From the NCBI GenBank assembly GCA_025964625.1, contig JAOPYL010000042.1:1-64000 (forward strand): DNA of 64,000 bases, written 5' to 3'. The notes under the pieces are model-generated. The model made no database searches. It was given only the letters and a program-made list of their open reading frames with translations, and was not told the DNA's origin. The DNA is from Actinoallomurus sp. (GTDB lineage Bacteria; Actinomycetota; Actinomycetes; Streptosporangiales; Streptosporangiaceae). The position numbers and the translations under genes were made by a program. Shown one piece after another: positions 62-868 of this stretch. How positions within the stretch are numbered: position 1 is the stretch's first letter; every line of letters begins with the position of its first letter.

Positions 62-868
62 TCAGCGACGGCGGTGTGCGGCGCGATCGTGCACAACATC
101 CTTGCGGGTTATCGCGAGATACCCGACGAAGCCGAGGACCACGACCGCCAGGGCAAGGCTGACCGGCCCGGTGCCCAGCGCGAGACCGCCCCGGTGGTGA
201 GACACCCCCATCCAGTCCGCGAATGACGCGCCGAGTGGGCGGGTCACGATGTAGGCGAACCAGAAGGCGAAGATCCCGTTCAGACCGAGCCGCCAGAACG
301 CCAGGGCCGGGATGGCGATCAGGACGGCGAACATCACGCCCGAGCCGAAGTAACCCAAATTCATGGTTACCGCAGTCATGTCGCCCGCGGCGGTGCCGAG
401 CGCGAACGTGGCCATTACCGTGGCCCAGTAAAACACCTCACGGCGCCAGGTGTAAATGCTGTGGATGGACAGTGTTCTTTCGCTCGCATACCAGACGACG
501 AAGATGACGGCCAGTGCGACAACGAAGAACGCGGTTGATACAAAATAGGGGACGCCTAGTACGACGTGCAGGACATCGGCGGCCATGGTGCCGAACACGC
601 TGACCATGACGACGGCTGTCCAGTAGATCCAGGCCACATATCGGCGGACGGAGAACTGCAGCGTCAGCGAGGCCGCCAATGCTATTCCGGCGATACCGAC
701 GGCGATCACCGGATTGAGTCGGTGGGCCAGGTAGTCCGAAGTCGTCTCGCCCATGCCCGTGGTCAGCACTTTTATGATCCAGAAGTAGACCGTCACTTCC
801 GGAACCTTGCTCATTGCGTGCCGCGCGGAGGCCAGGGGGCGGTTCTGCTGGAGTTGCCCTGTCGTCAT
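62..868 (-). CDS. COG4705-type membrane protein with fourfold internal repeat
   Basis: 268-aa integral membrane protein with roughly eight hydrophobic segments, resembling the uncharacterised COG4705 family; no function is known to me. A motif W-x9-G-x4-D occurs four times with identical spacing (W30/G40/D45, W83/G93/D98, W148/G158/D163, W203/G213/D218), each in a hydrophobic segment. This suggests a protein built from four copies of a two-helix unit, with acidic residues facing a common path. A transport or channel role for a cation is only a guess. The basic tail (RKDVVHDRAAHRRR) suggests a cytoplasmic C-terminus. It is monocistronic; its upstream region holds 11-bp direct repeats. Confidence 0.8.
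   Translation of the reverse strand: MTTGQLQQNRPLASARHAMSKVPEVTVYFWIIKVLTTGMGETTSDYLAHRLNPVIAVGIAGIALAASLTLQFSVRRYVAWIYWTAVVMVSVFGTMAADVLHVVLGVPYFVSTAFFVVALAVIFVVWYASERTLSIHSIYTWRREVFYWATVMATFALGTAAGDMTAVTMNLGYFGSGVMFAVLIAIPALAFWRLGLNGIFAFWFAYIVTRPLGASFADWMGVSHHRGGLALGTGPVSLALAVVVLGFVGYLAITRKDVVHDRAAHRRR

Follow-up and report, generated by a model that had tools for sequence, protein, structure and literature searches.

A DUF347 gene at the start of a contig

The window, by which we mean the whole 64,000-nucleotide stretch analyzed here, carries on its minus strand (62..868) a gene for a DUF347 (PF03988) four-repeat membrane protein of 268 amino acids, identified from its open reading frame (868 to 62, stop codon included) and from four Pfam stretches. 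Because the window starts at base 1 of contig C336, the downstream side of the gene is cut off. PF03988 is the sole Pfam family listed for the protein at E values up to 1 (E 3.1e-52; 175 bits against a gathering cut-off of 28.2), and all four stretches were above the cut-off in a profile search of the genome's contigs. An NCBIfam search returned only a sub-threshold row, at 14.8 bits against 160. The family is described as four tandem repeats, each made of two membrane helices with a conserved Trp, and the window protein matches this layout, with two helices and a conserved Trp in every one of its four tandem repeats. We conclude that it is an ordinary DUF347 member, and nothing was found that sets it apart from the family.

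Upstream of the gene lies a short open reading frame without a Pfam match, followed by minus-strand genes from position 1890 that encode a PfkB-type sugar kinase, a DeoR-type regulator, a periplasmic sugar-binding protein, an ABC permease, an ABC ATPase and an FGGY-type sugar kinase. These neighbors give no functional clue. PepSY, UppP and two-component genes were absent from the seven upstream reading frames scanned against Pfam, which reach to 7.8 kb, and no metal gene was found among the upstream Pfam matches; in both cases the downstream side lies beyond the contig end.

Conservation of the W-x9-G-x4-D motifs

The protein contains four exact copies of W-x9-G-x4-D, at the positions claimed in a sequence-only reading of the gene and with no fifth match elsewhere in the protein. 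All on the minus strand, they are W30-x9-G40-x4-D45 in helix 1 (734..781), W83-x9-G93-x4-D98 in helix 3 (575..622), W148-x9-G158-x4-D163 in helix 5 (380..427) and W203-x9-G213-x4-D218 in helix 7 (215..262), and each motif Trp is preceded by an aromatic residue (F29, Y82, Y147 and F202). Among 100,000 shuffles of the same composition, the motif count was 0 in 98,462, 1 in 1,528, 2 in 10 and three or more in none. Four copies of an arbitrary triple are not rare, because 199 of 200 shuffles had some spaced residue triple (within 20 positions) with at least four copies; the rarity lies in this particular triple of scarce residues, together with its conservation.

A family alignment had been set beforehand as the check on motif conservation, and in it all four motifs proved to be near-absolutely conserved. 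The alignment comprised the window protein and 219 sequences of at least 200 amino acids, with 18 shorter pieces left out, and the full set of twelve motif residues was kept in 215 of these 220 sequences (window included), all four repeats being complete in them as in the window protein. Relatives with the full set are 27–82% identical to the window protein. In 80 close sequences (the window and 79 of 80 loci; L052, cut by its own contig end, was left out of alignment A1) the twelve residues are invariant. Two of the five exceptions (L292 and L258) have gaps in repeat 1, and another (L101) has Ser in place of Gly. The second gene of a Rhizobium locus (L031, 2920-3783), 19% identical, has Ala for Gly in repeat 2; it also has Leu for K33 and Thr for E41, and this relative may belong to a separate subfamily. 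The last exception, a Ktedonobacter paralog (L185, 5808-6638), has Asp replaced by Asn in repeats 1 and 4 but in no others, and is useful as a natural mutant.

Conservation extends beyond the motif residues. T94 (within motif 2), T159 (motif 3), R210 (motif 4) and W126 are present in 220 of 220 sequences, T209, P211 and E144 in 219, and K33 and E41, both within motif 1, in 217 each. The conserved core is net acidic, with four Asp and E41 against K33 and R210. The window protein has zero Cys, and no His is invariant in the family (H101 is His in 125 of 220 sequences and H136 in 174 of 220).

Distribution and paralogs

The family is spread over several bacterial phyla, plasmids and a metal-induced transposon. 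At E 0.001 or better, and with the center genome counted each time, DUF347 was found in 22 of 296 genomes of the window's phylum; for the phyla to which a Rhizobium, an Alicyclobacillus and a Ktedonobacter locus belong, the counts were 43 of 349, 4 of 249 and 35 of 201, respectively. Control genomes gave a match in 0 of 14, and 255 of 72,556 plasmid records had one. A tree of 156 sequences contains two deep clades, one of 132 members (support 1.0) and one of 23 (support 0.70), plus one outlier. The window protein falls in the larger clade together with MmfC1 of the mmf cluster described below, and MmfC2 falls in the smaller.

The window's own genome has two further DUF347 copies, 49% and 29% identical, with four motifs each (L095, 508-1305, and L096, 509-1408, on contigs C67 and C132). 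There is one per deep clade, and both lie near contig ends. A clade-1 gene was also present nearby at 9 of the 23 clade-2 loci (L001, L035, L038, L057, L089, L092, L126, L128 and L135), and such neighbors are perhaps partners; their co-occurrence is favored by sampling, since the window protein was the query with which most of these loci were retrieved. Elsewhere, the DUF347 copy at about 2577649-2578304 of G076:C1 is in short frames, one of them with a stop, and that of L114 is in a short or incomplete frame. Both are perhaps decayed genes or sequence errors.

Predicted fold and membrane topology

An AlphaFold2 model from an 80-row alignment (mean pLDDT 90.4, pTM 0.84) predicts eight membrane-length helices and a short C-terminal helix. 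On the minus strand, these are helix 1 (residues 24-50 of a predicted helix 11-50; 719..799), helix 2 (53-74; 647..712), helix 3 (79-103; 560..634), helix 4 (108-130; 479..547), helix 5 (141-168; 365..448), helix 6 (172-194; 287..355), helix 7 (198-221; 206..277) and helix 8 (233-254; 107..172), the last of which is also coupled to helix 1 by coevolution. In the model the motifs fall in the odd helices 1, 3, 5 and 7. Among 56 representatives less than 70% identical, 30 columns reach at least 95% conservation, and the same four helices hold 26 of them. The proposal of about eight helices with fourfold pseudo-symmetry is supported by four two-helix repeats in the Pfam stretches, the model and the conserved faces.

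Averaged over 157 sequences, Lys plus Arg came to 2.4 at the N-terminus, 2.1 in loop 2-3, 3.8 in loop 4-5, 1.1 in loop 6-7 and 2.3 at the C-terminus, and to 0.4 in loop 1-2, 0.2 in loop 3-4, 0.2 in loop 5-6 and 1.1 in loop 7-8, with loops 6-7 (1.10) and 7-8 (1.11) tied and the weakest two. Loop charge and the positive-inside rule therefore place both termini inside, with the motif helices parallel and running outward. By the same rule, the four Asp in the model would sit at about equal depth, 3–5 residues from the outer helix ends. Each motif had been described as opening with an aromatic-Trp pair and closing with a membrane-buried Asp; the pair stands, whereas the Asp is placed near the outer membrane face and not mid-membrane. 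On a helical wheel with Trp at 0 degrees, the conserved face points in the same direction in helices 1, 3, 5 and 7 (323-342 degrees), with Asp at 60 degrees and Gly at 280 flanking it.

A sequence search of solved structures found no relative, with one chance row at E 0.83, and Foldseek found nothing at E 0.001 or better against either the PDB (best 0.33) or viral models. The top row of the structural comparison, HGSNAT (PDB 8vlu), aligned 244 residues with the window model at Z 8.0, and we rejected it as homology given an rmsd of 6.2 Å and 6% identity; helical bundles can attain a Z of about 8.0 through their common arrangement. A weak structural match does not prove that the fold is new. Several MFS chains were among the weak rows of the comparison (Z up to 5.7). 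MmfC has been labeled an MFS protein in print; the window protein has no MFS profile match in Pfam at E values up to 1.

Coevolution supports a closed ring of helices

A mean-field coupling analysis of the 220 sequences, with an effective number of 124, covered 26,106 residue pairs. T42-T233, T112-A161, G177-F216 and P53-M95 took ranks 1, 2, 3 and 8. In each of these pairs one residue is at the outer start of an even helix and the other at Trp+12 or +13 of the odd helix that comes next. When the repeats were aligned separately, the partners came to lie in columns 57, 61, 61, 57 and 17, 17, 18, 18, and the four pairs are symmetry-equivalent within about one helical turn, not exactly. T42-T233 couples helix 1 with helix 8. 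Over all helices, the eight cyclic-neighbor pairs score above the other 20 (p 1.4e-5), and helix 8 with helix 1, a pair whose coupling is not attributable to sequence proximity, scores above all 20 non-neighbor pairs. Since helix 8 is coupled to helix 1, the repeats would close on themselves.

The coupling of helix 8 with helix 1 exceeded 18 to 20 of the 20 non-neighbors in all seven variants of the analysis (three other weightings and four random halves). Cyclic-neighbor p values were 0.012, 0.035, 0.021 and 0.109 in the four halves, and 0.016 with weights at 60% identity (effective number 19). Column shuffling removed the cyclic-neighbor signal and left helix 8-helix 1 above just 7 of 20. 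Single pairs were unstable, with P53-M95 moving to ranks 17, 115, 97 and 101 and one half placing G177-F216 at 410. We take these results as support for helices arranged in a closed ring.

In the odd helices, the side turned toward the previous even helix lies at 138-149 degrees (resultant 0.32-0.46). This is approximately opposite to the conserved side and suggests that the conserved faces point to the interior. The face toward the repeat's own even helix had no resolved direction (resultant 0.20-0.34). Direct couplings between odd helices did not rise above register-shifted nulls in averaged maps (the observed value was equaled or exceeded in 33 and 50 of 200 shifts), an outcome that would be expected if the facing residues never vary. 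Symmetry-averaged even-odd values are circular, the register of the even helices having been picked from the top couplings, and hence were not used. From the conserved faces and the ring closure we infer that the motif helices lie on the inside and that their Asp residues converge.

Genomic neighborhood

Gene calling for the context counts relied on crude scripts. A response regulator and kinase occurred within 5 kb of DUF347 in 12 of 36 genome stretches compared with 4 of 40 control stretches (p 0.013), and lipid-phosphatase families (PAP2/UppP) in 3 of 36 compared with 2 of 40, which is not significant (p 0.45); the controls come from the same genomes, include no plasmids and span 13 kb of scanned sequence, whereas cases were scanned for 5 kb per side. 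Some of the 36 stretches share a genome, at least five repeat loci of the close set (L180, L184, L189, L192 and L194), and most are without any of the families sought. At plasmid loci (20 hand-chosen among 60 matches listed, with L091, from Cupriavidus and without annotation, left out) both two-component genes (8 of 19, p 0.007) and PAP2/UppP (8 of 19 against 2 of 40 controls, p 0.001) were found within 5 kb, figures that are partly circular because the family profiles were seeded with proteins from those loci. The 80 close loci, mostly Streptomyces and not independent, had two-component genes in 35 cases, PAP2/UppP in 15 and DedA in 12, with DedA at 1 of 40 controls.

Pfam was also used on two genes each side, giving 222 neighbor proteins from 52 of 55 case loci (two of which match DUF347 itself) and 125 of 160 control genes. 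HisKA was matched in 18 of the 222 and is not among the 25 families listed for the 125 controls, and the response-regulator domain was matched in 16 of 222 against 2 of 125. PAP2 was matched in 8 of 112 neighbor proteins from the plasmid-rich half and is likewise not among the 25 families listed for the controls. Metal-transport families are few among the 25 listed of 99 and of 85, with one FeoB and one chromate transporter among 112 proteins; single plasmid stretches hold iron, nickel, chromate or vacuolar-iron-type transport genes. On an Enterobacter plasmid (L137, 2517-4136 and 4989-5756), the DUF347 gene adjoins an annotated mcr-10.1 lipid A phosphoethanolamine transferase.

Relation to published systems

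The family had been described as uncharacterized, which holds biochemically, but DUF347 (PF03988) has already been put forward in print: passages of a Frankia study propose it, with UppP, as a new potential metal transporter and report three UppP-DUF347 operons as up-regulated by lead (PMC4531530). The Frankia proteins are, like the window protein, actinobacterial members of DUF347, and are given six membrane segments there, whereas our model has eight helices. In addition, mmfC1 and mmfC2 are described as the DUF347 genes of the Pb/Zn-induced mmf cluster in passages of three papers (PMC12029693, PMC4914505, PMC2864759). This cluster is found on Tn6048 in Cupriavidus metallidurans, with a copy on the Variovorax plasmid pHB44, and MmfC1 and MmfC2 have four motif copies each, like the window protein, to which the pHB44 copies are 44% and 31% identical. 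On pHB44 the gene order is PepSY, undecaprenyl-diphosphatase, DUF347, small protein, DUF347, response regulator and kinase. The mmf genes are carried on a transposon together with PepSY, UppP and two-component genes, in contrast to the visible surroundings of the window gene.

The statements on mmf in PMC12029693 call its function unknown and report that strains with and without mmf did not differ in growth under Cd, Co or Zn, and those in PMC4914505 describe plasmid effects on Fe and V uptake and on bacitracin and argue for metal uptake, not export. Other passages report enrichment of DUF347 in Arctic algae and cold-adapted dinoflagellates (PMC9756366, PMC6249206). The matching passages of two Tn6048 papers (PMC13192273, PMC6210171) contain nothing on function, and PMC8069873 was set aside as a DUF347 source, the match in its text being a longer DUF number only. 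No structural or transport study of the family was among the literature matches listed.

A candidate metal carrier

We tentatively propose, at somewhat less than even confidence, that the window protein is a pseudo-fourfold ring that carries a cation or metal in envelope metal stress. The four two-helix repeats, in the same orientation and with N and C termini inside, would close into the ring. Its core would be the four motif helices, each presenting the same conserved face, on which Trp is close to the cytoplasmic end of the helix and Asp to the outer one, and E41, R210 and K33 would break the symmetry of this core. We infer that a cation, with a divalent metal as the likeliest candidate, would bind to the core at the outer layer of Asp residues and would be carried across the membrane, probably outward, within an envelope metal-stress response. 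Metal handling is a best guess that falls a little short of an even chance. It is favored by the published metal hints and by the nearby two-component and lipid-phosphatase genes at some loci. Against a carrier are the two conserved positive charges, K33 and R210, in the same helices as the motifs, and other points against a metal carrier are the lack of Cys and of an invariant His and the absence of a visible metal-gene neighbor at the window gene. The reported lack of a Cd, Co or Zn growth effect (in the mmf passages of PMC12029693) and the small number of metal-transport families among the neighbor families listed also count against the proposal, and the case made for uptake (in passages of PMC4914505) counts against export.

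The Gly and Asp could instead be structural, joining and capping the four core helices in a protein that serves as a scaffold or sensor-kinase partner and not as a carrier, which we consider somewhat unlikely. Asp and Gly flank the conserved face, as they would in side-to-side packing of neighboring helices, and two-component genes are linked to DUF347 in the genome stretches as well as at plasmid and close loci. However, pure packing would rarely need four conserved Asp plus Glu, Lys and Arg in membrane helices, and a linked regulator also fits a regulated transporter; in each set, moreover, the majority of loci lack one. A role in an envelope-lipid module, in undecaprenyl-phosphate recycling or lipid-carrier homeostasis beside PAP2/UppP phosphatases and DedA, with the metal response arising only via envelope damage, also seems unlikely. 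It draws on the frequency of PAP2/UppP at plasmid and close loci, of PAP2 among neighbor proteins and of DedA at close loci, and on the higher bacitracin resistance reported for pHB44, which has mmf genes (in passages of PMC4914505). The lipid-phosphatase link is, however, not seen in the whole-genome stretches, and a net-acidic core would suit a cation better than a lipid phosphate. In the same passages, pMBUI8, which has mmfA and mmfB without the mmf DUF347 gene, also raised bacitracin resistance, and pBS64, with the whole cluster, showed no such effect; therefore, the bacitracin effect does not point to DUF347.

Influenza M2 is a four-helix proton channel, and by analogy the fourfold axis could form a channel for protons or a monovalent cation, gated on the inside by a ring of Trp and filtered on the outside by a ring of Asp. 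The predicted equal depth of the four Trp on the conserved face near the cytoplasmic end, the four Asp at the outer end and the closed ring would agree with such a channel. Nonetheless, we consider it quite improbable, with R210 and K33 on the same conserved face expected to hinder an open cation path and with induction by heavy metals, reported in passages of PMC12029693 and PMC2864759, counting against it.

Returning to the cation or metal carrier, DUF347 is a known family with an unusually clean architecture, to which the present analysis adds the family-wide constancy of the motifs, the outward topology of the Asp residues and the evidence for ring closure. It is possible, although we hold this with more doubt than belief, that a single-chain, parallel, pseudo-fourfold fold without a clear solved relative, with a central cation path, an outer Asp ring, an inner Trp ring and one symmetry-breaking set of Glu, Arg and Lys, represents a new architecture for a metal or proton carrier. 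Should the ring prove correct, a short list of mutants for directly testing transport is given by the twelve motif residues together with E41, R210 and K33.
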